Virus record (IMG/VR): IMGVR_UViG_3300032288_002578
Location: 1-48,580 of that record
Strand: one strand, 5' to 3'
DNA from: a virus
Length of the DNA stretch: 48,580 nucleotides
Positions 360 through 27,711 of this stretch are shown here, in pieces. The notes under the pieces were generated by a model. It did no database searches, had not been told where the DNA came from, and saw nothing but the letters and a program-made list of their open reading frames with translations. The position numbers were made by a program, and so were the translations under genes. Every line of letters begins with the position of its first letter. Position 1 is the first letter of the stretch.

Positions 360-922
360 ATACTTTAGCACGTTCTGTACAAGACAATGGGCGTCGAAGG
401 CTTCTGTACTGACGATTAAAAATGATACATTAACGATTTTTGCCTTTGGCGTATCAGACGGGAGTCCTAGTCCGGGAGACCTTTCGTAATCGTTTCGTGA
501 TGTTCAAAAATAAACGGGAACAGCATTTCATTCGCAACCAAACAATTACTCATTTGTAGCCTAATGATTACTTATTTACATCTCCAGTCAATGATTGCTA
601 TAAAAAATAATCTAGATAGCAACTAATCTGAACACCCTTACAACTTTTATGCTAAAACTTATCAACTTGACACTAAAAAACAATTCTTATTACTAATCAA
701 ACATAGACATAGACATAAATTATTTTTTGATTGACATCTAACGCTCTAGCAATGTCATTACATAAGAGACATAAAAGATTAGACATAAAGACAAAGACAC
801 TAAGACAAGTAAAACTAAAACATAAGTTGTATAAACACTTAGGCAACATTCCATTTTAGTATCAGCGTGAGTTGCTAAATAATAAACTTGACAAGACCCC
901 GCATAGTTGATAACCTTAGTGT
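360..922. other. AT-rich intergenic region with GACA/GACATA repeats
   Basis: About 560 bases separate divergent genes, with no convincing ORF. From about 700 to 830 the + strand repeats short GACATA, AAGACA and TAAGACA units, which could be iteron-like or simply AT-rich low complexity. The right end carries the promoter of the phosphatase gene. ACGT and GTAC stop occurring within this region (last GTAC about 406). Confidence 0.45.
888..916 (+). promoter_or_regulatory. Promoter of phosphatase gene, likely leaderless
   Basis: TTGACA, 17-nt spacer, TAACCT. The -10 box ends 6 nt before the ATG at 923, so transcription should start at or next to the start codon. Confidence 0.65.
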
Positions 923-1507
923 ATGAATACTAACAATGATAGAGAGACTAAGACAATGACAACTAATGAACCAGATTACAGAGAGTCAGTTGCTAGAGAC
1001 CCATTCGCAGGGGATGACATCAACTTGCCTTTATGGTCAGAGATTCTACCTAACCTATGGCAAGGTGGCACTTACGATAATGACAGAGTTGGAGACCGCA
1101 GTTGTCAGTTAGACATACCCGCAATTACCCGCAGAGAGTTCGATAGTGTCTACACCTTTTACGCCTTCGCCAATCCAGTTGATTGGCAAGTAAAAGAATA
1201 CCGCTATGGCTATTACGACTCTCCAGATACAGACTTCCCCGTATCGGAGTTCAAGCGTATTGTTGAGATGGCTCACGCTGATTGGAAGCGTGGAGAGAGA
1301 GTTCTAATTAGATGTCAAGCGGGACTGAATAGGTCAGGCATAATCACCGCTCTAGTGTTGATTCGAGATGGCTACTCACCGCTTGAAGCAATAGACCTAA
1401 TGAGAGATACCAGACACCCTTATGTCTTATTCAATAAGCATTTCGAGAATTGGATTCTGAAGCAACCAGTTGAATTTTGGCGAGAGAATCTAACTACCGA
1501 ATTCTAA
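923..1507 (+). CDS. Protein-tyrosine / dual-specificity phosphatase-like protein
   Basis: Residues 130-138 read RCQAGLNRS, a CX5R(S) phosphatase loop with nucleophile Cys131 and Arg137. The usual HC is RC here. An upstream YYDSPDTDFP segment (about 98-107) could supply the general-acid aspartate. At 194 residues it is the size of a compact cysteine phosphatase. It would hydrolyse phosphotyrosine, phosphoserine or a small phosphorylated substrate; which one is not visible. The 923 start fits a leaderless mRNA; ATG 956 is an alternative without a good ribosome site. The 3' end overlaps the terminase gene tail to tail by 14 nt. Confidence 0.8.
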   Translation: MNTNNDRETKTMTTNEPDYRESVARDPFAGDDINLPLWSEILPNLWQGGTYDNDRVGDRSCQLDIPAITRREFDSVYTFYAFANPVDWQVKEYRYGYYDSPDTDFPVSEFKRIVEMAHADWKRGERVLIRCQAGLNRSGIITALVLIRDGYSPLEAIDLMRDTRHPYVLFNKHFENWILKQPVEFWRENLTTEF

Positions 1508-2885
1508 AGAGACTACTTTTAGAGTCAGGTAATCTACGAGACCCCATTGACTTAGCGGTTATCTTACCGCCAGTAAATCCAGGGGGCGGCTTGATTAGTA
1601 GAGCAGTAAGAGCGTGGACTAAAGCGTCTACTCGGTCAGGCGACTTACCTTCACCTGGAACCCACGAGACCATTTGAGATTCTAGGTCAGCAAGATAACC
1701 AATGTGGTGAACACGCCCTTGCTCATAACCTAACACCACAGGCTCGGCTCTAAGAGCCTTGCCATACTTCGAGTGGACTTCAAGCACCTTGATACTAGGG
1801 TCAATGGTGTTGATAGCATTTCTAACTAACGCACCACCTTGATTGACTTCGGCTACAACAGGACAACCCCACTTGCGAGCCATAGCAACTACACGATTAG
1901 CCCAGACATCAGGCGACCCTAACACGCTAGCGTCTTCAAGCACCCACGCTTCCCGCTTATACAAGTCTCTCTCACCAGTTGAAGCAACTACAACAATTCC
2001 ACATTCATCTCTAGGATTCTCGGCTACCGAAGGGTCTACACCAATTACTCTAAGTGGAGTGTTGAGTGGATAAGCAGATTGTCTATGATTCTCGATTAGT
2101 TCATCAGTCCATAAAGCACCTTCGACTGAATCTAACATCTCACCATAAAGTTCTTGTTGAGCAAGTCTAGTTCCAGCGTAGACACCTGTAATAGCGTCAA
2201 GGTAAGCAGTTGATAAGTTTCCAGAGTTGTCCATAGTTGAACCACGACTAATCACAACACGACCAGTATTTTTTGCTTCTTCTAATAATTTGTAAAGCAA
2301 TGGAACACGCTTCGGAGTTGTAGTAATCATAATTTGTGGATTACGACCTAGACGAGTTCCAACACGCAAGTTATCGAACGCAGTCATACCCGCCGCATCA
2401 GGTGTTTGTCTCCAAGCGGCGACCTCATCTCCCCAAGCGTGAGTGAATTGTGGACCACGCAATGAGTCAGGTTCATCAGCAGTAAAGCAAGTCGCAGTAT
2501 TTCCGTTGGGCCAAGTTAGTCTTCGCTTCGAAGGTTCATACAATGGTCTCTCACTAGGTGGAGACACATTCATAATTCCAGATTCACCTTCGACAATAAC
2601 ATCTCGAACATCCGCCGCTGTTCTAGCAACTAGAGCGAATCGTCTCTGTCCAGTATTAGTGTATTTCGCTTGCTCACGAACCCACTCTGCCGCTGCCCTT
2701 GTCTTACCAGCACCACGACCAGCAAGATACATCCAAATTGCCCAATCACCTTCAGGTGCTTGCTGTTCAGGTCTACCCCAGACAGACCAATCCCACATAA
2801 GAGTATCGGGGTCGAACCCAGATAGGATAATCGCTCTCTCGTCATCAGGCAAGAGAGCGATTTGTTCCATAAGACTTTTAGCCAT
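1494..2885 (-). CDS. terL: Terminase large subunit
   Basis: A 463-residue DNA-packaging motor. Walker A is AGRGAGKT (about 55-62), Walker B ends WGDE (151-154), then a TTTP coupling-like motif, and a nuclease start VIGVDPS with later acidic residues. It would bind the small subunit and portal, cut concatemers and pump DNA into the prohead. The start MAKSLMEQ lies 17 nt after the preceding stop; a longer frame from 2978 would overlap that gene heavily. No strong Shine-Dalgarno is present, so translational coupling is likely. The portal gene is not adjacent, which is unusual. Confidence 0.95.
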   Translation of the reverse strand: MAKSLMEQIALLPDDERAIILSGFDPDTLMWDWSVWGRPEQQAPEGDWAIWMYLAGRGAGKTRAAAEWVREQAKYTNTGQRRFALVARTAADVRDVIVEGESGIMNVSPPSERPLYEPSKRRLTWPNGNTATCFTADEPDSLRGPQFTHAWGDEVAAWRQTPDAAGMTAFDNLRVGTRLGRNPQIMITTTPKRVPLLYKLLEEAKNTGRVVISRGSTMDNSGNLSTAYLDAITGVYAGTRLAQQELYGEMLDSVEGALWTDELIENHRQSAYPLNTPLRVIGVDPSVAENPRDECGIVVVASTGERDLYKREAWVLEDASVLGSPDVWANRVVAMARKWGCPVVAEVNQGGALVRNAINTIDPSIKVLEVHSKYGKALRAEPVVLGYEQGRVHHIGYLADLESQMVSWVPGEGKSPDRVDALVHALTALLIKPPPGFTGGKITAKSMGSRRLPDSKSSLFRIR

Positions 2886-2901
2886 AGGTCTATTGTATAG
2901 A

Positions 2902-3456
2902 CTACAAAATGGCTCTATTCTTCGATTGAATCGGAGTGTAGACCCTACTTTGACCATTGTGGTCAGTCTTATAGCCATAGCGTGCTAGTCGGAATCGAAT
3001 AGCAGAGTGAGACACACCTAGTCGCTTACCTAAGCGATAAAGTGGCACGCCTTCAACTTCGTGAGCGTGATTGAGCAGTCTCACATACTCTTCGGCTTCC
3101 GCTCTGAATCGCATAGCGTTAGAGCGAACCTGTTGAGCCATAGGTTGTAGTTCAAGCAAGCGAGCCAAGATTTCAGGTGAAGGCTCGACAAACTCTCGCT
3201 TTGCCTTTTCAGGATAAACAGGTGGTTCAGGAATAACATAAGAATCATCCAGTTCAATTGTTTGAGAGTGTTCTGAAACAATCTGTCTAGTTCTCTCTCT
3301 AGTGATTCCACATACTTCCGCAATGCTAGTTAGAGTCCATCCAGCGTTTTTGAGATTGACAATGTATTGGTTTCTTTCATCAACATCATTCACCTTCAAA
3401 AACTTATTTCTAACTTCATCAGGAAGATTTATTAGTTTCTTGATTTGTTTTGGCAT
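2902..3456 (-). CDS. Two-HTH protein, candidate terminase small subunit
   Basis: 184 residues with two helix-turn-helix segments: LTSIAEVCGITRERTRQIV (about 42-60, sigma region-4-like) and YRLGKRLGVSHSAIRFRLA near the C-terminus, joined by a proline-rich then helical linker. Position directly upstream of and co-oriented with the large terminase suggests a DNA-recognition small subunit. A transcription regulator is an equally plausible reading because terminase small subunits vary widely. Confidence in DNA binding is high, in packaging moderate. Confidence 0.6.
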   Translation of the reverse strand: MPKQIKKLINLPDEVRNKFLKVNDVDERNQYIVNLKNAGWTLTSIAEVCGITRERTRQIVSEHSQTIELDDSYVIPEPPVYPEKAKREFVEPSPEILARLLELQPMAQQVRSNAMRFRAEAEEYVRLLNHAHEVEGVPLYRLGKRLGVSHSAIRFRLARYGYKTDHNGQSRVYTPIQSKNRAIL

Positions 3457-3467
3457 TTCTATTCTTT

Positions 3468-3638
3468 CTATACTCTTTGTGCCAGTAAAGCAGACACAAT
3501 TGAAGACAGACCCAGAGCAAGCACAATGTTGCCAGAGTCATTTACGAAGATGGCTACGAAAATAGCCACCGCAGATAGTGAGACCGCTAAAACAGCAGAC
3601 CACACCACATCACGAAGGCGTGCTAGTAATTTCCACAT
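3468..3638 (-). CDS. Small membrane protein (56 aa)
   Basis: Starts MWKLLARLRDVVW, followed by two hydrophobic stretches (about 14-31 and 38-52). The ATG overlaps the stop of the HTH gene upstream as TAATG, indicating translational coupling. No family recognised. Confidence 0.6.
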   Translation of the reverse strand: MWKLLARLRDVVWSAVLAVSLSAVAIFVAIFVNDSGNIVLALGLSSIVSALLAQRV

Positions 3639-3871: not shown

Positions 3872-4055
3872 TTTTCTTTTCTCCAGTTTCTTTGTCTTTA
3901 GGTAAGACAACTCCAAGTAGAGTTATCGGTTCTTCATTCCAATCCAAGTCCAAGTCTTCATCTCGAAGTGGATTGACTTTGTTGCTAATAATTAGAGCAA
4001 CCGCAATGATTCCAATGAAGAGCAGAGCGATTAGTCCTAGATTTACAATGTCCAT
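3858..4055 (-). CDS. Single-span membrane protein (65 aa)
   Basis: One strong transmembrane helix (about residues 5-25, LGLIALLFIGIIAVALII) followed by an acidic then lysine-rich cytoplasmic tail ending EKKNEKK. The start overlaps the stop of the deacetylase-like gene as TAATG. Role unknown. Confidence 0.65.
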   Translation of the reverse strand: MDIVNLGLIALLFIGIIAVALIISNKVNPLRDEDLDLDWNEEPITLLGVVLPKDKETGEKKNEKK

Positions 4056-5026
4056 TAGACAGCAACTTTCTTAGTTCCGTTGTAGATGTCAGAGACAACA
4101 TTCGCCCAGATTCTAGGCGTGTGTGTCTCCGCTTGATAACCACCAGCACCACCGATAAGCACTCGACCTTCGGAGTGGCGGTTAGCCAAGTCAGCGACAA
4201 CCTTAGACGCATAGTGGTAGCCATCATAGGTGTATTTGAGACCCCAATACTCGCCTTCGTGTCCGTCAGCACCAGTTGCTAGCAGAATCACATCAGGTTT
4301 GTAAGAGTCAATCTTCTCGGCAATGTCGTCAATAGCCCAAGCAAATGCTTCATCACCTTCGCCCTGTTGAAGAGCGTAGTTGTAGATTTGTTTGTCTTCT
4401 ATCTCATAAAGATAGTTGCCAGTCTCTCCACGAATCCAAGTGTCAGAGTGAGTTGGATAAATTCCGTGTCCGTGAATCGAGAAGGTTGGAATACCAGAGT
4501 TCTCCAGTAGATTCTGAACACCATCTCCAGCGTTCACATCCCAGTCAATGTAGACAGGTCTCAACCCAGCCTTCTGAAACTCCAGAGTAGCCCAAGCGAA
4601 GTCATTGAATACGCAGAAGCCTTCAGACCATCCGTATTGAGCGTGGTGCTTAGCACCCTGTGGATTGAAGCCCACCTGTATTTCTCCAGCAATCATCTTC
4701 TCGGTCAGTCTCGCAGTTCCAGCGAACATCTTTAGAGCAATCTCACCCATCTCTAACCTATGTCCATACCAATCGTGGCTAAGACCTTCGTCAAGCACTT
4801 CAGATACAAACTTAGGGGAGTGAATACTCTCTAGGCGTTCTCGGTCGCCAGAGTCCACTTCAGGCTCGATTACGACCACATTATCCGAACCCAGTTCAGA
4901 GACTAGGTAATCGGTAGCAATCTTCGCCCGAATAGGCTTAGTTGGATGTGAGCCATCTCCGCTTCCAAGTAGCCACTTCAGGTAATCATCGCCATAGGCT
5001 ATGTGTAATTTTTCTTTATTTGTCAT
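4055..5026 (-). CDS. Histone deacetylase / AcuC-like amidohydrolase with altered metal site
   Basis: 323 residues, normal length for the family. Conserved elements: tandem His127-His128 in GAKHHAQYGWSEGFC, FND at 140-142, the metal loop DWDVNAGDGV (161-170), Asp254 in TGADGHEGE, and the GGY tyrosine at 297. In canonical enzymes the loop is DxDxHxGDG and its His is a zinc ligand; here that position is Asn165. Zinc may be held differently, or the fold may act as a binder. Known relatives remove acetyl groups from lysines, polyamines or small molecules. It leads an operon with the small membrane and HTH genes. Confidence 0.8.
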   Translation of the reverse strand: MTNKEKLHIAYGDDYLKWLLGSGDGSHPTKPIRAKIATDYLVSELGSDNVVVIEPEVDSGDRERLESIHSPKFVSEVLDEGLSHDWYGHRLEMGEIALKMFAGTARLTEKMIAGEIQVGFNPQGAKHHAQYGWSEGFCVFNDFAWATLEFQKAGLRPVYIDWDVNAGDGVQNLLENSGIPTFSIHGHGIYPTHSDTWIRGETGNYLYEIEDKQIYNYALQQGEGDEAFAWAIDDIAEKIDSYKPDVILLATGADGHEGEYWGLKYTYDGYHYASKVVADLANRHSEGRVLIGGAGGYQAETHTPRIWANVVSDIYNGTKKVAV

Positions 5027-5052
5027 TGTTTCTTTCTTCTTTCTTTTATTTG

Positions 5053-5081
5053 AGTTTATCTGTTATTGACTCTTATGTCAA
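5053..5081 (-). promoter_or_regulatory. Promoter of deacetylase-like operon
   Basis: TTGACA, 17-nt spacer, TAAACT; the -35 box lies 3 nt from a copy of the repeated TTCCAGGGG/TTCCACCC element. Confidence 0.7.
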
Positions 5082-5084
5082 AAC

Positions 5085-5114
5085 GGGGGGTGGAAAATCA
5101 CCACTCCCCTGGAA
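5085..5114 (+). repeat. Intergenic element A, copy 1
   Basis: GGGGGGTGGAAAA, a short spacer, then CACTCCCCTGGAA. First of 17 similar elements found only in gaps between transcription units from 5.1 to 28.3 kb. Confidence 0.7.
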
Positions 5115-5137
5115 TAAAGACATTTCAGGTCAGTTCA

Positions 5138-5296
5138 TCAGAAGATTTTTCCCTTCTGCCTACGCCCGACAGAGCCTTTGAAGTCTGCCTTTGGATAGAT
5201 GTTGTAGCATAGCCAGTCAAGTTTCTTTGATAATCCATAAAGACCAAAGGCTAACCTTCGTAGCACCCAGTAAAGAGTTTGATACACGATTTTCAT
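5138..5296 (-). CDS. Small basic protein (52 aa)
   Basis: Starts at ATG 5296 after a good AAGGAG site. Aromatic and basic (LYWVLRRLAFGLYGLSKKLD); possibly membrane-associated through an amphipathic helix. The ATG overlaps the previous stop as ATGA. No family recognised. Confidence 0.6.
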   Translation of the reverse strand: MKIVYQTLYWVLRRLAFGLYGLSKKLDWLCYNIYPKADFKGSVGRRQKGKIF

Positions 5297-5463
5297 CTGT
5301 TCTCCTTCTCGCTGATAATAATCACTCGTCTGCTCGGAGAGACTTGGATGTCAAGTCCTAAATCTGTTTGATTTATGAAGTGTATCTGTCTCCGTAGAGC
5401 AAACTTGAGACCAGCAATGAACATAAGTGCCATTGCGGGAATTACAGCCCAGAGTGCTACCAT
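5293..5463 (-). CDS. Small membrane protein (56 aa)
   Basis: N-terminal hydrophobic segment (VALWAVIPAMALMFIAGL), then a soluble tail. AAAGGA precedes ATG 5463. Coupled by ATGA to the next gene and driven by the promoter at 5489-5517. Confidence 0.6.
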   Translation of the reverse strand: MVALWAVIPAMALMFIAGLKFALRRQIHFINQTDLGLDIQVSPSRRVIIISEKENR

Positions 5464-5488
5464 AGTTAGTCCTTTCGTCTTTACTTCT

Positions 5489-5517
5489 AGATTACCACTT
5501 ATAGTCTAGTTTGTCAA
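5489..5517 (-). promoter_or_regulatory. Promoter
   Basis: TTGACA, 17-nt spacer, TAATCT, upstream of the two small membrane/basic protein genes; the -35 box abuts the stop codon of the next gene. Confidence 0.6.
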
Positions 5518-5519
5518 TA

Positions 5520-5747
5520 CTAGGCTTCGGGAATCTCAATGGGGGATTCTGACACCATTGCCAGTTCTGGCTTATTTGCTTCCAACTTAGAGATAAAACT
5601 CTCCGTGTCCACCATCCAGCCAGAGATTAGTAGCCTATCTACTCCAGAGTGAGACTCCGTATGTTGCTCGTCTAGTTTCTTTAGAGCATACTTGGCTAGT
5701 GAGATAGCAAAGGCTAACTCTTCGTCATTTAGATTGAGATTTGGCAT
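5520..5747 (-). CDS. Hypothetical helical protein (75 aa)
   Basis: AAAGGAC precedes ATG 5747. The N-terminal half (NDEELAFAISLAKYALKKLD) is predicted amphipathic helix. Acidic, no cysteines, no recognised family. Confidence 0.6.
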   Translation of the reverse strand: MPNLNLNDEELAFAISLAKYALKKLDEQHTESHSGVDRLLISGWMVDTESFISKLEANKPELAMVSESPIEIPEA

Positions 5748-5789
5748 TTCTGTCCTTTCGTCTTATGTGTAAGTGTTTCCTACTATTAC

Positions 5790-5818
5790 AGAATAGCACA
5801 CTAATCTTCTGTTGGCAA
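5790..5818 (-). promoter_or_regulatory. Promoter
   Basis: TTGCCA, 17-nt spacer, TATTCT with TGC just before it, overlapping the 3' end of the upstream gene. Confidence 0.55.
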
Positions 5819-6064
5819 GTCTCCGAGCCGAGATTTTAGTTCAATTTCGCTGTATTTGTAGAGTTCAGCAAACATTGAATCGGCATTGGGGTTTAGACCA
5901 GATTTGACCAGATAATCCACTCCAACCAAGATGTTGAATAGAGTTTCATCACTAAAGTCATACTCATTGGCAAAGTCTAAAACTTTAGCCTTTACACCTT
6001 TGTCATAAGCAGATAAAAACTCTAGAACTTCTGAATCTGTCATCTCTAAAACGGACTTCTTCAT
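5801..6064 (-). CDS. Hypothetical acidic helical protein (87 aa)
   Basis: AAAGG precedes ATG 6064. Mostly predicted helix, with no transmembrane segment or metal motif. It is the first gene after element A copy 2 and the extended -10 promoter at 6090-6115. Function not recognised. Confidence 0.6.
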   Translation of the reverse strand: MKKSVLEMTDSEVLEFLSAYDKGVKAKVLDFANEYDFSDETLFNILVGVDYLVKSGLNPNADSMFAELYKYSEIELKSRLGDLPTED

Positions 6065-6089
6065 AACAAACCTTTCGCTAACTACCTTT

Positions 6090-6115
6090 ATTGTAGCACC
6101 AATAACCGCAGTCTA
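6090..6115 (-). promoter_or_regulatory. Extended -10 promoter next to element A
   Basis: TGCTACAAT without a good -35. The CCACCCC end of element A ends 20 nt upstream of the -10 box, the same spacing as at the 10,433 gene, so the element may take the place of the -35 contact. Confidence 0.5.
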
Positions 6116-6141
6116 GGGGTGGAAAATGGAGACCCCCCTGG
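6116..6141 (+). repeat. Intergenic element A, copy 2
   Basis: AGGGGTGGAAAA, spacer, ACCCCCCTGG. It sits between a terminator and the promoter of the 6,064 gene. Confidence 0.7.
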
Positions 6142-6190
6142 CTTATGTCATAGATTTCAAAATGTCAGAGGTTGGGTTTATACTTCCCGA

Positions 6191-6220
6191 AATAAAAAAA
6201 CCCCGTGCCTTTCGGCACGG
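6191..6220 (-). terminator. Rho-independent terminator
   Basis: CCGTGCC/GGCACGG hairpin followed on the minus strand by a run of seven T; ends the 6,622 gene. Confidence 0.85.
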
Positions 6221-6241
6221 AGTTCCAGGGGGGCGGCTATT

Positions 6242-6622
6242 TTATAGGCAGATGTCAGCCGAACAATGTCTTCCGTGTCCAACTCTGTTCGGGAAACTAC
6301 AATTGAAGTGTGGAACTGGGTGTTCATCTTTACATCTTTGGCAATCGTCAGTTTCAGCCTGTCGCTTTGCTTCGTATTGCTGTCTCGCTAATTCTTCAGC
6401 CACTCTTTCTTGCTCACGCCTTTCAGCAAGTATTGCCTGATACTCTGGGCTTTCAGTTTTCTTAGGGGCTTTCAAGTATTCAGCAATAAGTTCGCTGGCA
6501 ATTTCTTTACTAGAGAAAACTATTTCATTCAGTTTTTCGCTCAAGTTAGGTGCGTATCTTTCTTTATCTAACCGCTTTAGAAATGCCCATTGCTTCTCTG
6601 TAATTCCAATTTTATTTTCCAT
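6242..6622 (-). CDS. Phage protein with C-terminal Cys/His cluster (126 aa)
   Basis: The N-terminus ITEKQWAFLKRLDKERY resembles the start of the neighbouring DUF6011 protein (SERQVSFIETLLRERVW), suggesting a shared helical module. A charged coiled-coil segment follows (about 60-92). The C-terminus carries CQRC, then His/Cys residues ending CSADIC, a probable zinc site. A good AGGAAGGA site precedes ATG 6622. Confidence 0.65.
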   Translation of the reverse strand: MENKIGITEKQWAFLKRLDKERYAPNLSEKLNEIVFSSKEIASELIAEYLKAPKKTESPEYQAILAERREQERVAEELARQQYEAKRQAETDDCQRCKDEHPVPHFNCSFPNRVGHGRHCSADICL

Positions 6623-6644
6623 TTATTTTCCTTCCTACATTTTC

Positions 6645-6674
6645 AGTATAGCACTATAACGCTAACCTTGTCAA
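6645..6674 (-). promoter_or_regulatory. Promoter
   Basis: TTGACA, 18-nt spacer, TGC-TATACT (extended -10). Confidence 0.75.
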
Positions 6675-7108
6675 ACATTTTTGATACAGACAGGGCCGAT
6701 TCCCTGCTCAACGCTTGCTGGGTCAGACAAGAATCTACCGCAGACACAACATAAGCCAGTCGCAGTTCCGAAGGCTCTCGCTTGCTCTAGGGTCATTTTC
6801 TGTTCAGGCTTCAGTTTGTAGATAGCACCCTGCTCATACTCCCACCCACCAGACAAGACAAGTTTCTTGGCATAAAGTCTGCCAGTCTCTCGACTTGGTT
6901 GAACTCGGTAGATGTTTCCATCTTCAAGTTGATAAACACCCATCTCGATACCAGCCAATCTTGACACCTTCGGTGCTTTTAGCAAGTTGTCAATTAGACC
7001 GCTTGCGTCTTTGCTAGTGAGAATCGAAAAATCTATTTCCTGTTCCCACACTCTTTCTCTAAGTAAAGTCTCAATGAAACTCACTTGGCGTTCGCTTGCT
7101 TTATTCAT
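6671..7108 (-). CDS. DUF6011 zinc-motif protein
   Basis: The C-terminal 30 residues contain LCCVCGRFLSDP and then GIGPVC, the DUF6011 signature (CxxCGRxLxDPxSxxxGIGPxC), which probably binds zinc. The N-terminal helical region matches the start of the 6,622 gene product; a central segment (about 60-100) is beta-rich. Two adjacent ATGs (7111, 7108) are possible; the second has the better distance from AAGGAA. DUF6011 is common in actinophages and plasmids, and its function is unknown. Confidence 0.8.
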   Translation of the reverse strand: MNKASERQVSFIETLLRERVWEQEIDFSILTSKDASGLIDNLLKAPKVSRLAGIEMGVYQLEDGNIYRVQPSRETGRLYAKKLVLSGGWEYEQGAIYKLKPEQKMTLEQARAFGTATGLCCVCGRFLSDPASVEQGIGPVCIKNV

Positions 7109-7137
7109 CATTTCCTTCTTTCTCTCCTTCCATAATC

Positions 7138-7166
7138 AGTATAGCACTTGACTCTGATAAACGCAA
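7138..7166 (-). promoter_or_regulatory. Promoter
   Basis: TTGCGT, 17-nt spacer, TGC-TATACT. Confidence 0.65.
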
Positions 7167-7202
7167 CTATAAAGGCGTGTCTTATGTCATAAACCGAAGG
7201 GA

Positions 7203-7232
7203 CTCCGGGGGCAGCATCTCTTTCCACCCACC
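7203..7232 (-). repeat. Intergenic element A, copy 3 (variant)
   Basis: On the + strand CTCCGGGGGC, spacer, CTTTCCACCCACC. The TTCCAGGGGG half is degenerate. Confidence 0.55.
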
Positions 7233-7245
7233 GCACGCCTTCGAA

Positions 7246-7277
7246 ATAAAAAAAGAGCCAGATTTCTCTGGCTCTTT
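7246..7277 (-). terminator. Terminator
   Basis: AGAGCCAGA/TCTGGCTCT hairpin followed on the minus strand by seven T. Confidence 0.85.
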
Positions 7278-7329
7278 CCGTAGGGAGTGGTGATAAATAA
7301 GCAGTTTAGCCACTTACTTAGGTGGAGTC

Positions 7330-7569
7330 TTACTCGCCCTTCAAAACCTTCAGGCGTTCCAGAATTGCGTCTAGAACTTCAGTCAATGCTTTTAGATTGT
7401 CAAGCGACAAGTCTTGAGCAGTCTTACTTCTAGCGATTACCGAAACATTATTCTTCATAATCTCTAGCAGACTATCCATACCGCTACCAACTTCTTTGTA
7501 AGCGATAAGCAGTTCGCCAAGTTCCATCTCTGAAACTTTGTCAATCATTTCTTGATACTTTTTTTCCAT
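7330..7569 (-). CDS. Hypothetical helical protein (79 aa)
   Basis: Almost entirely predicted alpha-helix with heptad-like leucines, so a small coiled-coil or helical bundle. Last gene of a three-gene unit behind two membrane proteins, so possibly peripheral to the membrane. Its ribosome site is purine-rich but weak. Confidence 0.6.
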   Translation of the reverse strand: MEKKYQEMIDKVSEMELGELLIAYKEVGSGMDSLLEIMKNNVSVIARSKTAQDLSLDNLKALTEVLDAILERLKVLKGE

Positions 7570-7570
7570 T

Positions 7571-7744
7571 TTATCTTTCTTTCTTTTTCAAGTATTCGGC
7601 AACTGAAATTACAATCGAACCGAAGATTAGTAATACTCCAAGTCCAGCACCAACTAGAAATGAATTTATACTTCCGTGCTGACTTGTGAAATAGAATCCA
7701 GCACTTGCTGAAACCGCACCTAAACCAAATAACAGATACTTCAC
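7571..7744 (-). CDS. Small membrane protein with GTG start (57 aa)
   Basis: The GTG start overlaps the TGA stop of the preceding gene (GTGA), a coupled arrangement. Two hydrophobic segments (about 3-20 and 28-50) end in a KKKER tail. Possibly partners the upstream membrane protein. No family recognised. Confidence 0.55.
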   Translation of the reverse strand: MKYLLFGLGAVSASAGFYFTSQHGSINSFLVGAGLGVLLIFGSIVISVAEYLKKKER

Positions 7745-7953
7745 TTATCTACCTTTCTCCAAACCAAATCAAGCACGAACAGCAATTCGACCACTCCACC
7801 TAGAACTAATCCGTGAATAAACACTTCACTAGCATTACCGATTGGTGTAGCACCATAAGCAATTAGACCAGCGTGGAATAGAACCCAAGCAACAGCAACC
7901 GCAGGGATAATTAGAACTCCAGCAACCAGTCTGGCAATCACATACTTTGTCAT
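7741..7953 (-). CDS. Membrane protein (70 aa)
   Basis: Two predicted transmembrane helices (about 5-30 and 45-64). Strong AAGGAG before ATG 7953. First gene of the unit driven from 7974-8001. Role unknown; the small size and two spans would allow a holin- or antiholin-like part, but nothing specific supports that. Confidence 0.6.
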   Translation of the reverse strand: MTKYVIARLVAGVLIIPAVAVAWVLFHAGLIAYGATPIGNASEVFIHGLVLGGVVELLFVLDLVWRKVDK

Positions 7954-7973
7954 TTATCTCTCCTTCAATTTCA

Positions 7974-8001
7974 AGTTTATAGGCTATTTTAGATTTGTCA
8001 A
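7974..8001 (-). promoter_or_regulatory. Promoter
   Basis: TTGACA, 16-nt spacer, TAAACT. Confidence 0.6.
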
Positions 8002-8005
8002 GTGT

Positions 8006-8248
8006 TTAGTTATTCGGGTCGTAATCTGCGTAGTAGTCGTCTCTATCTTCAGATAGCGAACTCTCTCGGTAAGTAGCACCGCAGAACTCACACTCGATAG
8101 CGTAGTTGCCCCAGTCGTCAGTTGCTGTCTCTCCAGCACCATTTTCTTTTAGGCACTCTTCATTTTCGCACTCGAACGCTTCATACGAAACTTCTTGTGA
8201 ATAAATACCAGAACCACGCATTGAACCTGGTGGATAATTATCAAACAT
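8006..8248 (-). CDS. Zinc-ribbon-like acidic protein (80 aa)
   Basis: Two cysteine pairs, CENEEC (27-32) and CEFC (53-56), could form a zinc ribbon; the C-terminus is Asp/Tyr-rich. The start overlaps the end of the regulator gene, with AAGGAG inside that gene. Confidence 0.6.
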   Translation of the reverse strand: MFDNYPPGSMRGSGIYSQEVSYEAFECENEECLKENGAGETATDDWGNYAIECEFCGATYRESSLSEDRDDYYADYDPNN

Positions 8249-8519
8249 TTACGAACTCCTTATCTCTGTCGAACTCATTTATGTAGAACTCCCAACCGCC
8301 CATACGATAACCAACTTCGATTACTATCTGGTTAGTCGGAACTCCTAAAGCGTAAGCAATAGATTCCATAATCACGGAAGACGCTTCTTTATGACCCCTT
8401 TCGATTTCCGAAAGATAGCCTAGAGCAACATTTGCTTTCTTGCTAATCTGTCGCAGAGTTAGACCCTTTTCGGTTCTCAACTCTCGCAACACTTCTCCAA
8501 GTGCTTCCTTGAACATCAT
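8241..8519 (-). CDS. XRE-family regulator, ClgR-like
   Basis: Residues 5-70 form an XRE helix-turn-helix. LRQISKKANVALGYLSEIER followed by GHKEASS matches the actinobacterial ClgR pattern (GYLSEVERGxKEASSE), a family that activates clp protease and stress genes. A phage copy might redirect host proteolysis or control the surrounding unit. The two start ATGs are adjacent; the first overlaps the previous stop. The ClgR affiliation comes from motif memory, not a search. Confidence 0.8.
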   Translation of the reverse strand: MMFKEALGEVLRELRTEKGLTLRQISKKANVALGYLSEIERGHKEASSVIMESIAYALGVPTNQIVIEVGYRMGGWEFYINEFDRDKEFVNV

Positions 8520-18979: not shown

Positions 18980-18984
18980 AAGTC

Positions 18985-19361: not shown

Positions 19362-19390
19362 TTATTACAGATACCACCGACATTTGTCAA
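19362..19390 (-). promoter_or_regulatory. Promoter, best match to the TGTCGGTGGT class
   Basis: TTGACA, 17-nt spacer AATGTCGGTGGTATCTG, TAATAA. Confidence 0.75.
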
Positions 19391-19409
19391 TAGTTTCCGC
19401 AAACTTTTT

Positions 19410-19850
19410 TTAGTCAATTCGAGATTCCATAAACGCTTGAATCCCTTGCGACCGCAAGTAAGCGGCGACTTTACCGCAGACTTGTTGTTTCAACTGGAGA
19501 GACTGGCGTGTCGGTGCGAATCCGTCTCTGTCGTGTAGCCAGATAGAAACGCCACGATAACCAACACCCTGGACCCAATGCTTGCTGGCGTGTCCATTAG
19601 CGACTAACCAGCGTGCGAATCCTGACCGAGCAGAATCAAGCACGACCCAGGCAAATCCGCAAACGCCATCAGCAACGAACCAAGTTTGTTTGTTGTAGTC
19701 AATGTCGTTTCCAAGCGGAGTGGTTGGAGTGCCAACTATCATTGGAGTTGGTGCTTTAGCGGTGGCAAGTGCTTCGTGAGAAACACGCTTCATCTCTTGC
19801 CAAATGTTTTGGAACTTCACTTCATTAGAAGCGGAGATTTTTTGAACCAT
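19410..19850 (-). CDS. Conserved phage protein (146 aa)
   Basis: Core QTWFVADGVCGFAWVVLDSA and RGVSIWLHDRDGFAPTRQSL, a compact alpha/beta protein of a type seen in actinophages. GAAAGGA precedes ATG 19850. Catalytic role not evident. Confidence 0.65.
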   Translation of the reverse strand: MVQKISASNEVKFQNIWQEMKRVSHEALATAKAPTPMIVGTPTTPLGNDIDYNKQTWFVADGVCGFAWVVLDSARSGFARWLVANGHASKHWVQGVGYRGVSIWLHDRDGFAPTRQSLQLKQQVCGKVAAYLRSQGIQAFMESRID

Positions 19851-19882
19851 CTTTTTTTCCTTTCTTTCTTTCTTACATACTT

Positions 19883-19912
19883 AGAATACCAGTTGCGACT
19901 GACATTTGTCAA
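19883..19912 (-). promoter_or_regulatory. Promoter
   Basis: TTGACA, 18-nt spacer starting AATGTCAG, TATTCT. Confidence 0.65.
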
Positions 19913-19919
19913 TAGCGAC

Positions 19920-20216
19920 TTAGTATAATTCAGAAAGTTTTTTGTTCCCGAAATGTAGGTCTCGTTCGACTTTCAAGCCGAAAGGACCGGAAAGCGATTC
20001 AAGTTCGCTTAGGTAGAAATAACCTAACTCTTTCTCGAATCCATCAACCAGTCCAAAGAACTCGTCTTTGCCATCAAACTCGGTGGCATACCAAGTCCAG
20101 TTAGCCCAGGGGGTAAAGAACTTCACCACAACTTCTGCTTCCAGTCCAAGCGATTCGCCTGAACCAATTGGTTTATTCTCGAACTTCTTTTGAATCTCTT
20201 TAGTCATTAGTTTCAT
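19920..20216 (-). CDS. DUF2958 protein
   Basis: 98 residues with the family pattern MKLMTKEIQKKFE, VVVKFFTPWANWTWYATEFD, GYFYLSELES and GPFGLKVERDLHF. DUF2958 is common on plasmids and phages; function unknown. The start at 20216 follows AAAGGAG. An upstream GTG extension is not needed. Confidence 0.85.
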   Translation of the reverse strand: MKLMTKEIQKKFENKPIGSGESLGLEAEVVVKFFTPWANWTWYATEFDGKDEFFGLVDGFEKELGYFYLSELESLSGPFGLKVERDLHFGNKKLSELY

Positions 20217-20236
20217 AATAACTCCTTTCACTTCTT

Positions 20237-20265
20237 ATTGAATCATAGATTCCAACAAATGTCAA
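20237..20265 (-). promoter_or_regulatory. Promoter, TTCAAT class
   Basis: TTGACA, 17-nt spacer ending ATCTATGA, TTCAATAA. Confidence 0.7.
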
Positions 20266-20290
20266 GGCGTGTCGCAAATAATTTAGAAAT

Positions 20291-20320
20291 TTCCAGGGGG
20301 TCATAGGTTTTCCACCCCCC
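20291..20320 (-). repeat. Intergenic element A, copy 13
   Basis: TTCCAGGGGG, spacer, GTTTTCCACCCCCC. On the minus strand GCGACACGCC and the -35 box follow. Confidence 0.8.
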
Positions 20321-20341
20321 TTCGCAATTTGGATAAAGATA

Positions 20342-20361
20342 AAGACTGGATTTCTCCAGTC
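20342..20361 (-). terminator. Terminator
   Basis: AGACTGGA/TCCAGTCT hairpin followed on the minus strand by TTTATCTTTATCC. Confidence 0.75.
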
Positions 20362-20383
20362 TCGTATCTCTCTGCTTGGCGAT

Positions 20384-20539
20384 TTACTCTACGCCATAAC
20401 TTTCACAGATTTCAGCAACTGCGTCATTGAGTTCGTTGATTAGCAAACTAATCTCGTTCTCGTTCAGGTCGCTACCATCAAGCATTTCTTGCGTTAGCGT
20501 GCTTTGCCAAACAATGTTGGGGTCTCTTTCTGTCTCCAT
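20384..20539 (-). CDS. Small acidic protein (51 aa)
   Basis: METERDPNIVWQSTLTQEML, then an acidic helix. GGAAGGTGGTGGG precedes ATG 20539. Single-gene unit. Not recognised. Confidence 0.6.
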   Translation of the reverse strand: METERDPNIVWQSTLTQEMLDGSDLNENEISLLINELNDAVAEICESYGVE

Positions 20540-20567
20540 TTTCCCACCACCTTCCGTGTCCATTTCT

Positions 20568-20595
20568 ATTATACAGATTACCTACGACATTTCAA
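20568..20595 (-). promoter_or_regulatory. Promoter
   Basis: TTGAAA, 16-nt spacer starting TGTCG, TATAAT. Confidence 0.7.
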
Positions 20596-20601
20596 GTCTA
20601 T

Positions 20602-20753
20602 CCGTTAGCGTTTCTCACATCTGCTACATACCAGAAACGCTATCCGTTAGTCTCTATCGCTTTACTCTTATAGGTTCGGGCTTACTTTCGCTTGCCGTTA
20701 GGCGAGCCGTTATTAGTAGCATTACGCAAGCCGTTAGAATCCACACGCCGTTA
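20602..20753. repeat. Six CCGTTA repeats with a terminator hairpin
   Basis: CCGTTA occurs at 20602, 20644, 20695, 20707, 20731 and 20748, usually as GCCGTTAG. The gap between the 21,116 and 20,539 genes also holds an AGCGTTTCT/AGAAACGCT hairpin (20607-20641), a plausible terminator. ACGCAAGCCG, one of the repeat contexts, recurs near 23,157 and in the 28-30 kb region. Confidence 0.55.
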
Positions 20754-21116
20754 GTCATTGTCGAACCAATGCTCTAAATCAACGAACTCGATTTCGATTT
20801 TCACTACTCTCTCGCCCCAGTCGTCTAAGTCGGCAATGGTGGCATACACAGGGTAATAGCCATCTCCCAAGCCTGTCCGTGAAACGACACCGATTCCAGC
20901 GTGTCCTGCTGGATAGGTTAGTTGTCCGTTGAAATCATCCGCAAGCGTTCTTTGGCAAGCCCCAGCGTAAGAATAGTGTCCGTCTGGAACTCTCTCGCCG
21001 AACTGCTCACTTCCGAAGTCTGAAAGATAACTAGGGTCGGTAATCAGAATCTGACCGCTATCAACTCCGCAATAGCCGATTAGTTGTTTCCGTGTTTTTA
21101 TTTTTGTTTTAGACAT
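20751..21116 (-). CDS. DUF4241-like conserved phage protein (121 aa)
   Basis: GVDSGQILITDPSYL near the start and GLGDGYYPVYATI in the second half resemble DUF4241/phage families with a GDGxYPVY strand motif. Start MSKTKIKTR at 21116 follows GAAGGAGA; upstream ATGs lie inside the neighbour. Predicted beta sandwich; function unknown. Confidence 0.65.
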   Translation of the reverse strand: MSKTKIKTRKQLIGYCGVDSGQILITDPSYLSDFGSEQFGERVPDGHYSYAGACQRTLADDFNGQLTYPAGHAGIGVVSRTGLGDGYYPVYATIADLDDWGERVVKIEIEFVDLEHWFDND

Positions 21117-21357
21117 TGGCGTTCTCCTTCTCATAACCTTTATCCATCTTTTTATACATTTGCTCGGTAGCAAACGCTTTAGCGAGTTGCTCGGTGGCGA
21201 ACTCGAATCTTTGTTCTTGGTCTCGGTATGTAGGCAACTCGGCACGACCCCAGCGAACAATAACTCGATTCTCGACTTGAGTAATCGTGTATCGCTTTCG
21301 GTAGCCAAACTGCCCACGCCGACCTTGCGACCTAGAGATTAGGTTTATTCTTTCCAT
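21109..21357 (-). CDS. Small WGR-like protein (82 aa)
   Basis: YTITQVENRVIVRWGRAE, then a helix with FEFATEQLAKAFATEQMYKK and KGYE, which follows the WGR domain order (strand-WGR-helix-KKxxKGY). WGR domains bind DNA ends and nucleic acids in PARPs and bacterial regulators. The ATG overlaps the preceding stop as TGATG. Confidence 0.6.
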   Translation of the reverse strand: MERINLISRSQGRRGQFGYRKRYTITQVENRVIVRWGRAELPTYRDQEQRFEFATEQLAKAFATEQMYKKMDKGYEKENANV

Positions 21358-21695
21358 CAGAACCCACTCACGCTGTCGCTTATGAACCTGTATGCTTTGT
21401 CGGCAAACACATCTGGGCTATCTTTGAATAGAACCTGATTACCTGTATCGTAAGATTCTGTCTCCAAGATTCCAGTCAAGACTGCGACCCTAGCGAGTGC
21501 CAAAGATAAAGTAGCGAAATACTCGTTCCACTCATTTACCACATTGTCTACGCACTTCACCCTGAACACAAACTCACCAGTTGAGTTTTGGAAAGTGTCA
21601 ATAGTGATGGTGCTGTATTCACCTAAGTCAAACACAAGTGGCTTAGAAAGCATTTGTAGTCTGCTTGGTTCAGTATGTATTCCTAGATTTTCCAT
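21357..21695 (-). CDS. Hypothetical protein (112 aa)
   Basis: AAAGGAG precedes ATG 21695. Beta-rich middle (STITIDTFQNSTGEFVFRVK) and helical C-terminus. First of three coupled genes with the WGR-like and DUF4241-like proteins. Not recognised. Confidence 0.6.
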   Translation of the reverse strand: MENLGIHTEPSRLQMLSKPLVFDLGEYSTITIDTFQNSTGEFVFRVKCVDNVVNEWNEYFATLSLALARVAVLTGILETESYDTGNQVLFKDSPDVFADKAYRFISDSVSGF

Positions 21696-21718
21696 TTTGT
21701 CTCCTTTCAGACAATTTC

Positions 21719-21748
21719 AGTATAGCAACAAGGTCTGACATTACGCAA
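21719..21748 (-). promoter_or_regulatory. Promoter
   Basis: TTGCGT, 18-nt spacer starting AATGTCAG, TGC-TATACT, overlapping the end of the Api92-like gene. Confidence 0.7.
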
Positions 21749-23176: not shown

Positions 23177-25105
23177 TTATCCGTTCCGCTTACCGATTTT
23201 CTCGACAGCACGAACTGCTGATTCACCAATTAGCGTGGCGATTTCACTTGCCGACTGCTCTGGTTTCAGGCAGACCAACTGGGCATCCGTTCCGTCAAGA
23301 TAAGAACGAGCAGAACTTCCGTTGTCGAATGTCAGCCACAGAACCGCAACTCCGTTCGAGTTGAACTTCTGAATCCACTCACGAACCTGCGGTCTAATGT
23401 CGTGGCGGTAATAACCATCTGACACCACAACCAACATTCTCGCACCAGAGCCATAGCAAAGGTTCAGCGAACCTTCAAGAGCCTGAAACGCTTGGACACA
23501 TTCTTCCGTTCCATCTGCTGCGGAGTAGACCTTCACTTCGTCAAGGTGCTGACCCGGCTTTAGCGTAGGGAACACAGAGTTTCCGTAGTAGACCATAGCG
23601 GTTCTCGCCTGAACTCTGCGACCTGATTCGGACAGAACCCAAGCGGTGCTTGCCATAGGATTCATAGCACCACCCATAGAACCAGAAATGTCCACAGCAA
23701 CGCCAATGGTCAGAGTTGGCTCGTCAGTCATTTTACGAATCCTACGAGACCAAGCATCAACTTGCTGATGGATTCCCTTCGACTTCAACGCCTGACCCTG
23801 AACTACTGAACGAGTGCGAAGTCTACCTGGGGGCAGAACGCTGTTCACTTCGATAACATCTCTCTCACGATACTTTGCTTTTTCCAATGCTTTAGCAACA
23901 CGCACAGCGGCAACTCTCTCGTCAGCAGATGGCTTTCGACTTTCGATTAGGCGAGAGTTTGTATCAGAGCCATCACCAGGACCACTTGTCTTGGCAAATA
24001 CTTTTTGGGCGACCTGCTGGTTCTTACCCTTCTCCTTGCTAACTTGCTCACGCTGTTTCGCATCTTCTGACCAATCGTCTTTTGTGATTTCATCATCAAG
24101 GTCAGACTGGTTTGAGATTTGAACATTGTCTCTAGCATCCTGAATCGCATCACGAATCATTTGCTCGATTGGCGATAAAGGTTTGGATTCTGATTTGCCA
24201 TCTTCTGATTCTGATTCTGATTCTGATTCTGAATCACCATCATCAGAACTTTCACTTGGAGATGGAGTGCCATCAGGAGATGGAGTGCCACCACCAATTG
24301 GAGATGGATAACCACAGATGATAGGGCCTTCAACATCTCCCTTCTCACCCTTCTCTTTAGAAGTCTCTGTAAGAATCTCTACCCACTTTTTAGCGAGTGG
24401 ATAAAGTTCGGTGGCATCATTGTGCTTGTCGTGTGCTTGGAACGCAATCCAAACTTCACGCAACTTTTCAATTACATCAGCACCTAAGATACCTTCAAGA
24501 ATCGGAACGACAGGTTCGACATCACTAGGTTCAAGAACACCAGCATCAACACGACCAAGAGTAAGGGCAGCAAGTAATCCAGCACCACGAACATTCGCAA
24601 CTTTGTCGAGTTGTTTGTCAAGGTCTGCCATCACAATTTCCATAGCACAGGCACGAAGTAGCACACGCTTATCAGGCATAGTGCGAACACCAAACGATTC
24701 GATTCGACCTTCTTCCAAATTGTGAAGTGCTGAAAATACTTCGCTGTTTTTTTCAACAGCATCATAAGCATCAAGCAAAGACCAACGAGTGAATCGTGCG
24801 TGTAGTGATTCGTGGAAAATAGCACCAGCACCCTTAGCGTATTCGAGTTGAGTTCTGCGTTTAGTAATGTCTCCAATGTCTACTGGTAGTGCGTTGTCAA
24901 AAGCAATCTTGGTGTTGATTTCAATCTCGGCAGTAGCAGGGTTGAATAGAGCAGGGGCAGGGGCAGAAGTTGTCTCTGACAAGTTCACAACTAGGTCTGT
25001 TCGGAACGACCAGTCATTGACTAACTGACCTACCTTAGCACCTAGACCCAGCCACTCGTGGGGGGTTGGATTCGCTTTAGGAATCGTAGTTGAAAAGTGA
25101 GCCAT
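23177..25105 (-). CDS. VWA protein with HExxH, CobT-like partner of AAA+ ATPase
   Basis: 642 residues. HESLH at 98-102 within AGAIFHESLHARF is a metal-binding HExxH motif. Residues 270-310 are Pro/Ser then Ser-Glu repeats, a flexible linker. A VWA domain (about 463-640) has the MIDAS motif DISGS (471-475). This order matches CobT and related VWA partners of MoxR/CobS AAA+ ATPases, which remodel a client or insert metal. The AAA+ gene lies just upstream in the same orientation. No cobalamin pathway is present, so the client is likely another protein. Such pairs occur in large phages with unknown purpose. Confidence 0.85.
   Translation of the reverse strand: MAHFSTTIPKANPTPHEWLGLGAKVGQLVNDWSFRTDLVVNLSETTSAPAPALFNPATAEIEINTKIAFDNALPVDIGDITKRRTQLEYAKGAGAIFHESLHARFTRWSLLDAYDAVEKNSEVFSALHNLEEGRIESFGVRTMPDKRVLLRACAMEIVMADLDKQLDKVANVRGAGLLAALTLGRVDAGVLEPSDVEPVVPILEGILGADVIEKLREVWIAFQAHDKHNDATELYPLAKKWVEILTETSKEKGEKGDVEGPIICGYPSPIGGGTPSPDGTPSPSESSDDGDSESESESESEDGKSESKPLSPIEQMIRDAIQDARDNVQISNQSDLDDEITKDDWSEDAKQREQVSKEKGKNQQVAQKVFAKTSGPGDGSDTNSRLIESRKPSADERVAAVRVAKALEKAKYRERDVIEVNSVLPPGRLRTRSVVQGQALKSKGIHQQVDAWSRRIRKMTDEPTLTIGVAVDISGSMGGAMNPMASTAWVLSESGRRVQARTAMVYYGNSVFPTLKPGQHLDEVKVYSAADGTEECVQAFQALEGSLNLCYGSGARMLVVVSDGYYRHDIRPQVREWIQKFNSNGVAVLWLTFDNGSSARSYLDGTDAQLVCLKPEQSASEIATLIGESAVRAVEKIGKRNG
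24205..24234 (-). repeat. Five-unit 6-bp tandem repeat in VWA gene
   Basis: TCTGAT repeated four times plus TCTGAA on the + strand encodes the Ser-Glu run of the linker. Such a repeat can change length by slippage without a frameshift. Confidence 0.85.
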
Positions 25106-25220: not shown

Positions 25221-25261
25221 GCCAGAATCTGATTTTGGGGAAGGAAGGACTAGATTCTGGC
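25221..25261 (-). terminator. Hairpin at end of AAA+ gene
   Basis: GCCAGAATCT/AGATTCTGGC, a 10-bp perfect stem overlapping the stop codon. It probably ends or attenuates the AAA+ transcript before the VWA promoter. Confidence 0.65.
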
Positions 25262-26251
25262 TGGCTCTACGACTTCGCCAAAGGTTTTGGAGAATACTTC
25301 CGCAACCACAGGTCTGTCGAGTTCAGGTGCTGATGCGATTAGATTTGAAATCGCCCAAGATGTTCCGAAGTTTTCGGCAAGCAACTTGAAGGTCAGCACT
25401 TCACGCATTTGTGGAGACCACGAAACTTCGCCTGACAAATAACGCTTGGCAAGGTTTTGGCTCGCAGTAATCACAGGCATTGGCACACCCAACTTCTTGG
25501 CGATTGTCCAGTCAGTTAGCATCTCTGCCTGAACGCCAAAGCGTGAAAGCAGGGCCTCTGACAAACGAACACCAGGAGCATTAGGGTTAGTAGCGGCGAC
25601 CACATAGAAACCATCTTGAACTTGGACAACGCCACGCTCCGGGTTTTGAGTGATTCGCAACTCGTTTCGACCATCCATCAGACCATAGACCAGCGATAGA
25701 ACTTTAGGGTCAATCAAACCAATCTCGTCAATGAACAAGACTTTACCTTGCTCGATTGCTTGGACTAGAGGACCATCAACCCAGTCGAATCCGCCACTTG
25801 GAGTTTGGACATAGCCACCAACAAAGTCAGCAACTTCTGTATCTCCAGTTCCAATGATGGTAATCAGGTCAGCACCAAAGGCGGCTTCAAGCAACGCAGT
25901 CTTACCAGTTCCTGGAGGACCATAAACAAGCGTGTATTGCTTGATGTCTCGTGCTTTACGCAAGGTTGGAATGTCAGCGTGTTCACCCCACGAACGACTT
26001 GTATAAGTCTCGCCATTAGGTCGAACATAAACATTCTCACCAGTCATTGGTTCGGCACTCACGACACCACGCACCTTTTTAGTAGTAGTAGCACCATCTC
26101 GAACTCTGATAACAGCACGACCAGAATCTTCGTGATAGAACTTTGTTAGTTTGTCTCCATAGGTGTCGTTCACAAACTGACCAAACACGCCACGAATGGC
26201 ATCTGGTAAATCAGGACTGAACCCTTGAGTTGTTTCGGTAATTGTATTCAT
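25250..26251 (-). CDS. AAA+ ATPase, MoxR/CobS type
   Basis: 333 residues. Walker A GPPGTGKT (111-118), Walker B VLFIDEIG (171-178), sensor 1 in VVAATNPN, and an LSRFG segment near the arginine-finger position. Domain order and length fit MoxR/CobS ATPases, which form rings and act with a VWA protein. The downstream VWA-HExxH gene is the obvious partner. AAGGAG precedes ATG 26251. Confidence 0.9.
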   Translation of the reverse strand: MNTITETTQGFSPDLPDAIRGVFGQFVNDTYGDKLTKFYHEDSGRAVIRVRDGATTTKKVRGVVSAEPMTGENVYVRPNGETYTSRSWGEHADIPTLRKARDIKQYTLVYGPPGTGKTALLEAAFGADLITIIGTGDTEVADFVGGYVQTPSGGFDWVDGPLVQAIEQGKVLFIDEIGLIDPKVLSLVYGLMDGRNELRITQNPERGVVQVQDGFYVVAATNPNAPGVRLSEALLSRFGVQAEMLTDWTIAKKLGVPMPVITASQNLAKRYLSGEVSWSPQMREVLTFKLLAENFGTSWAISNLIASAPELDRPVVAEVFSKTFGEVVEPARI

Positions 26252-27331: not shown

Positions 27332-27355
27332 TTTGTCTCCTTCGTTCATACCCCC

Positions 27356-27384
27356 AGTATGCCAGAAAGCAGAACTCGTGTCAA
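27356..27384 (-). promoter_or_regulatory. Promoter
   Basis: TTGACA, 17-nt spacer, CATACT. Confidence 0.65.
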
Positions 27385-27416
27385 GTTCATTTATAGAAAT
27401 TATTTCAGGCGTGTCG

Positions 27417-27445
27417 CCCAGGGGGTGATACCTTTTCCACCCACC
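27417..27445 (-). repeat. Intergenic element A, copy 16
   Basis: CCCAGGGGG, spacer, CTTTTCCACCCACC; on the minus strand followed by GCGACACGCC, as at copy 13. Confidence 0.8.
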
Positions 27446-27664
27446 TTACAGAACTGGTTTCGCACACTCCAAGCAAACTATCCATTCAGATTCGTCATCA
27501 AGGGCGAGCAGGAAGGGAACAAACTTCTTCCCATCAGCGAGTTCGCCAACTGGTTCAAAGCAAGTCTCGCAACTTTCAAAGTCGCTAGTCTCTAGCCCAA
27601 TTTCATTTGCTAAACGCTGTTCTTCAGCGTTCTCTATAGTGTGGAGTTCAATGTGTCGCATCAT
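27446..27664 (-). CDS. Small CxxC protein (72 aa)
   Basis: CETC and CLEC pairs frame a beta hairpin, likely one zinc. Start MMRHIELH at 27664 or 27661; the longer frame to 27757 crosses the word-usage boundary and overlaps the next gene. No clear Shine-Dalgarno. Confidence 0.6.
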   Translation of the reverse strand: MMRHIELHTIENAEEQRLANEIGLETSDFESCETCFEPVGELADGKKFVPFLLALDDESEWIVCLECAKPVL

Positions 27665-27711
27665 AGTTTTATGATAAAACATCCCACAATGCGTGATTTG
27701 AGACTCCGCTG

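Follow-up and report, generated by a model that had tools for sequence, protein, structure and literature searches.

A 27-kb arc purged of restriction-type words in a phage contig: a likely first-entering genome segment

Why should a phage lose short words from one contiguous part of its genome and keep them in the rest? This question is raised by IMGVR_UViG_3300032288_002578, a 48,580-base IMG/VR virus record that is listed as linear. It was analyzed whole and is referred to here as the window; gene and site coordinates are positions in it. An original prediction, made from the letters of the sequence, held that ACGT, CATG, TGCA, and GTAC are missing from positions 410 to 27,711 and proposed Markov-corrected tetramer counts as a check. 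These counts found the words absent inside this arc and present to the right of 27.7 kb. Specifically, each of the four was counted 0 times in 410 to 27,711, against Markov expectations of ∼50 (ACGT), ∼53 to 67 (CATG), ∼99 to 104 (TGCA), and ∼58 (GTAC). All four also occur outside the arc on the right, as claimed, and the leftmost 409 bases hold all but CATG.

Words Missing from the Purged Arc

Two further words, overlooked by the original prediction, behave in the same way. ATAT has 0 copies in the arc, where ∼92 are expected, and an observed/expected count of 68/71 to its right. TTAA has two copies in 410 to 27,711, both at the extreme edge (positions 416 and 430), and none in 431 to 27,711, where ∼114 are expected; to the right of the arc, 84 were observed and 117 expected. 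The six-word count is zero over 431 to 27,711, the interval that we call the purged arc. At the right-arm density of 18.3 per kb, these words would be predicted ∼498 times over its 27.28 kb. AGCT, GATC, CGCG, and GCGC have 0 copies across the whole window. Thus, the absence of palindromic tetramers is real but comprises 10 of the 16 and not the 8 first counted, and the expectation of ∼100 copies for each word has to be replaced by a span of ∼50 to ∼115.

The losses extend well beyond palindromic tetramers. We scanned 618 distinct REBASE sites against a trinucleotide-based null, taking sites below 0.25 of expectation as depleted. By this measure, 72 of 410 testable sites are depleted in the arc, whereas the right arm has 17 among 353. 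Many of these sites are nested, and by our reading of the list the largely independent depleted specificities number about 30 or more in the arc versus about 8 in the right arm. Those in the arc include gapped palindromes (observed/expected, ACNGT 1/87 and GTNAC 0/83), degenerate sites (GTYRAC 1/30, CGWCG 0/25, and CCWWGG 0/19), and asymmetric sites (CCTC 10/123, CACTG 1/55, CTCAG 1/48, and CATCG 1/38); CASTG is also among the purged sites. The arc thus holds words far below their composition-based expectation, which is the signature of restriction-site avoidance. Because gapped and asymmetric sites are purged as well, and a structural aversion to palindromes would spare CCTC, the target of the purge is restriction recognition and not palindromy. 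The words avoided genome-wide (AGCT, GATC, GCGC, CGCG, and GGCC) may correspond to restriction systems that lie outside the reach of the phage's protection.

Both edges of the arc were located closely. The arc start, on the side of the endolysin gene (28,401 to 29,183, minus strand; PHROG, 4e-14; 0.7 kb outside the arc), is a sharp edge at 27,664 to 27,714, with GTTAC at 27,711 and ACGT at 27,714. It falls in the 48-bp gap that separates two minus-strand open reading frames (ORFs; 27,446 to 27,663 and 27,712 to 27,957), in agreement with the intergenic placement (27,664/27,712) first proposed. The arc end, on the side of the terminase large subunit (TerL) gene (1,494 to 2,978, minus strand), lies at 406 to 430, where the last GTAC (406) and the last TTAA (430) are found, at the start of the first late-operon gene. 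Contig L002, which comes from another metagenome and encodes a terminase 100% identical to that of the window, has normal word densities past this left edge, and the edge is thus not an assembly artifact. As read on L002, the late-operon start coincides with the left edge, with a late-operon ORF starting at TerEnd+1107. Just outside the arc start, at 27,880 to 28,260, lie about nine AAGCCGTTA-like, iteron-like repeats, which may function as a packaging or terminus element and which were not seen in relatives.

The Arc in Related Lineages

Contigs encoding relatives of the window's terminase (designated by L or G numbers) were read whole, with the endolysin and the terminase as landmarks. In nearly all lineages, certain words are scarcer in the stretch between these landmarks than in the remainder of that genome, and the depleted words are lineage-specific. 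An arc-specific purge of 1 to 11 palindromes was found at p<1e-5 in 13 of the 14 genomes tested, with counts near expectation elsewhere. For example, the observed/expected counts of G018 in the arc versus the rest are 3/95 versus 666/686 for TTAA, 0/51 versus 557/531 for TGCA, and 3/53 versus 225/224 for TCGA; those of AGCT in G028 are 3/53 versus 159/216, and those of ATAT in G013 are 0/50 versus 192/194. The same kind of arc is found at the same place in about ten related lineages, with lengths of about 15 to 32 kb. Comparison with phage relatives, which the original prediction had also proposed, thus shows an arc position that recurs with differing word sets. The purged arc is a real, strong, and clade-wide observation.

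The limits of the arc in these relatives were set with a scan statistic blind to the landmarks. For most of the words and genomes that were informative, this statistic placed the arc start 0.2 to 2.1 kb beyond the endolysin. The arc end is variable, at TerEnd −8, −4, or +1 to +2.5 kb. At fine scale, sites in the relatives resume at the late-operon start, after 1 to 2 kb of mostly noncoding DNA, and the end is sharp in the window, G013, G021, and G022, where density rises from ∼0 to normal within a few hundred bases. Site density increases with distance from the endolysin end in G007, G028, G029, G016, G019, and G021 (rho 0.58 to 0.97). Most relatives also carry short tandem-repeat arrays, with a unit that differs by lineage, 0 to 1.9 kb past the terminase. 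The matching part of the window, a purged noncoding stretch at 431 to 922 that is a candidate injection-stop region, has only short near-repeats and no array detected by Tandem Repeats Finder. Contig ends also cluster here: of the 41 contigs that are 20 kb or longer, 21 end 0 to 5 kb downstream of the terminase. Since the tandem-repeat arrays are a sufficient cause of this clustering, it was dropped as an indication of a physical end.

A sister contig, G002, shows how sites were lost. Its terminase is identical to that of the window at 449 of 493 residues, and the terminase tree places both within one supported group. The G002 terminase gene has six ACGT and four TGCA sites, and all 10 are gone in the window with the amino acids unchanged. 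In the stretch before its terminase (locus L005), G002 is depleted of ATAT, CATG, GTAC, and TTAA and retains ACGT and TGCA. Because the G002 terminase sites are replaced synonymously in the window, these sequences indicate that the sites were removed in place, one word at a time, and this counts against the arc being a foreign block that was simply imported.

Entry Order and Competing Explanations

The DNA ends of isolated relatives bear on why this particular segment is purged. Their linear records carry identical direct terminal repeats of 17,669 bp (Big4), 7,581 bp (GodonK), and 1,702 bp (Sixama), and Pumpernickel has a direct terminal repeat of 19,963 bp (of which the first 6,000 were compared). 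The left ends of the linear isolate records lie 20.5 to 27.3 kb before the terminase, and those of Big4 and Pumpernickel are at most 2 kb from the endolysin. In the window, the arc start lies 24.7 kb before the terminase and 0.7 kb from the endolysin. In addition, 17 of the 18 promoter-like elements of the form TGTC[AG]G-N8-13-TAnnnT are in the arc, spread through it from 4,441 to 21,740, and the sole right-arm copy is at 46,698.

We therefore regard as likely that the arc is the left-terminal, first-transferred segment of early genes, which meets host restriction ahead of any anti-restriction activity. The original prediction had suggested a segment that enters first and meets restriction unprotected, as in phage T5; the fixed position, the differing words, and the homology to the isolate left ends support this, and the arc-confined promoter-like elements and far-edge repeat arrays add to it. 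We infer that this phage has a DNA end at the arc start, that entry is ordered or two-step, and that an anti-restriction step follows. The linear genome would enter the cell in order from the end beside the endolysin, so that the virion DNA would have its physical left end at 27,664 to 27,714. The arc would arrive while host restriction enzymes are active, and recognition sites in it would be lost by point substitutions, which are often synonymous. Early-gene products would next inactivate or outrun restriction, ahead of the entry of the late operon and the remainder, and sites outside the arc would be tolerated once protection is in place. The terminase-side edge may mark either an entry pause, by a T5-like stop signal, or the point at which protection is complete.

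Several observations weigh against this interpretation. No anti-restriction gene was recognized among the arc genes by Pfam or NCBIfam. The density gradient is reversed in G013 and G011 and flat in the window, where counts are already zero throughout. In G018, G024, G028, G029, G016, and G019, a 3- to 4-kb block that holds the terminase is unpurged, for which recent gene replacement or weaker selection are candidate readings; the noncoding stretch after this block is purged where sequence is available. DSL-LC01, an Actinomycetia phage with a homologous terminase, has no arc-limited depletion, and neither do the stretches of Big4 and GodonK, the two of the four linear isolate records that were scanned. 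The T5 first-step-transfer (FST) segment has no broad purge of 4-mers comparable to that of the arc. The window and most relatives are metagenomic contigs. A final weakness of the interpretation concerns the host. A PstS-like protein of the window (45,686 to 46,735, minus strand) is 76% identical to the product of a pst-operon gene in a Rhodoluna metagenome-assembled genome and 29 to 37% identical to all others listed, and this match suggests a freshwater Microbacteriaceae host. Rhodoluna genomes (n=67) have few methyltransferase genes each, so that the many purged words would need a diverse or changing host pool.

The alternative that fares best is that entry is ordered and continuous, for example because it is slow or, as in T7, coupled to transcription. 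An anti-restriction protein would be made early, there would be no pause, and arc length would reflect the time to protection. The density gradients from endolysin to terminase in several lineages, and the arc ends that vary between lineages, fit this account. The step-like end at the late-operon start in the window, G013, G021, and G022, together with the repeat arrays at the end edge in many lineages, fits it poorly, and we consider it unlikely. An import of the arc from a lineage with hosts richer in restriction systems is disfavored and appears very improbable. The edges are sharp and at gene boundaries, and AGCT, GATC, CGCG, and GCGC are missing from both parts with the extra words missing only from one, as such mosaicism would produce. 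However, about ten lineages are purged at the same position with different words, the terminase inside the arc groups with its relatives and has lost its sister's sites synonymously, and the G002 stretch before the terminase is depleted of one subset of the words and keeps another. The fixed position and the synonymous removal of terminase sites thus contradict the acquisition from a lineage with other hosts that the original prediction had offered as its second reading.

A slightly poorer prospect still is that the unpurged arm is chemically protected, by Mom-like modification or a methyltransferase, and the arc is not. That arm does encode a Mom-like DNA modification protein (30,857 to 31,504, minus strand; phrog_1384, 2e-56), an N6/N4-type DNA methyltransferase-like protein (41,407 to 42,429, minus strand), and a DUF4406/deoxynucleoside monophosphate kinase fusion (42,697 to 43,596, minus strand), and these predicted functions suggest that the DNA is modified. 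However, modification at replication should reach the whole genome, and we know of no mechanism by which DNA modification would spare one arc. Least credible of all is a cause other than restriction, such as codon usage or a regulatory or structural constraint on early genes. The arc does stand apart as a gene-dense early region, but its counts of exactly zero, the loss of gapped and asymmetric words of restriction type, and the word sets that differ by lineage argue against such a cause.

Genes, Relatives, and Known Systems

The arc is occupied mainly by a block of ∼45 mostly small minus-strand genes of early-region type (3,638 to 27,331), which include those for HTH/ClgR-like and sigma-70 region-4 proteins. 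Among the early-region genes is one for a histone-deacetylase-domain protein (4,055 to 5,026, minus strand; Pfam PF00850, 1e-40). Near the arc start, a CobS-like AAA ATPase (25,250 to 26,251, minus strand) adjoins a 642-residue protein (23,177 to 25,105, minus strand), and DSL-LC01 has a similar pair at 27 to 30 kb. Beside the terminase is a gene for a dual-specificity phosphatase-like protein (923 to 1,507, plus strand; Pfam DSPc, 3e-9). A repeated element, GTGGAA-N8-16-CCCCTGG, occurs in 14 copies in both orientations, 13 of them in the arc (5,090 to 27,440) and the 14th at 28,288. CCWGG sites are kept in these elements, which hold 13 of the 31 in the arc; an apparent avoidance of CCWGG in the right arm only is partly explained by this and was set aside. 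In the right arm, a full-length phage-encoded tmRNA lies at 47,578 to 47,898 (minus strand; Rfam RF00023, 130 bits) with the tag AESRSAFALAA, and a search for the host with this tag gave no match.

The window terminase is 76.5% identical to that of DSL-LC01 and ∼62% identical to the terminases of ∼190-kb Microbacterium phages. The DSL-LC01 genome is 129 kb, and, as four self-closing related IMG/VR contigs are 132 to 138 kb, the window is probably a fragment of about one third of a ∼130-kb-class actinobacteriophage genome. Over its whole length, DSL-LC01 (L082 to L084) contains neither ATAT nor TTAA. Big4, Pumpernickel, GodonK, Sixama, and DSL-LC01 all have a homologous terminase and early-gene block.

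Two-step entry of T5 DNA is the textbook case, and the evidence tying it to restriction comes from laboratory mutants and EcoRI. Insensitivity to restriction has been connected with the T5 FST segment (PMC9345386, citing Davison and Brunel 1979), and the T5 injection stop signal is described as repeat-rich (PMC13250531). In the T5 sequence, all six EcoRI sites are outside the FST segment, and the annotated injection stop signal (iss, 9,140 to 10,149) contains a 23-bp tandem array at 9,574 to 9,668. As in the arrangement proposed here, the T5 segment is left-terminal, carries small pre-early genes, enters first, and ends in a repeat-bearing noncoding region; it also sits in a long direct terminal repeat, such as the isolated actinophage relatives carry. 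The T5 segment is ∼10 kb, whereas the arcs here span 15 to 32 kb, involve tens of specificities, and in some lineages include the terminase. The nearest terminases to that of the window belong to actinophages, which places it outside the T5 family (Demerecviridae). Avoidance of restriction sites across phage genomes (Rusinov et al. 2018, PMC6286503) likewise reflects words lost under selection, but here the loss is confined to one arc with a fixed start; a search of that paper by selected terms returned no mention of the position of avoidance. The leading region of plasmids, with its anti-defense genes (PMC11602122), is a further case in which first-entering DNA bears the conflict with host defense. 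Plasmid entry, however, is single-stranded, and that study treats genes and whole-plasmid site counts and not an arc-limited purge. A literature search, drawn mostly from journals available without subscription, returned no report of arc-limited avoidance. Thus, the first-segment principle has a precedent in T5, whereas the breadth, size, and clade-wide record described here are without precedent in the literature searched.

The arc constitutes a natural experiment, with tens of recognition words and about ten lineages, in which restriction sites are costly in a single positional segment. Whether DNA entry in this freshwater actinobacteriophage clade takes place in two steps, the first segment being 15 to 30 kb long and making up as much as about one fifth of the genome, with a polarity and stop that can be read from the sequence, is in our judgment an evenly balanced proposition. 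The arc also points to the likely location of unrecognized broad anti-restriction genes. For uncultured phages, sequences would allow one to infer entry order, how far anti-restriction reaches, and where stop signals lie. If this is true, restriction leaves a site-free shadow that would mark, without culture, the first segment, the entering end, and the stop point.

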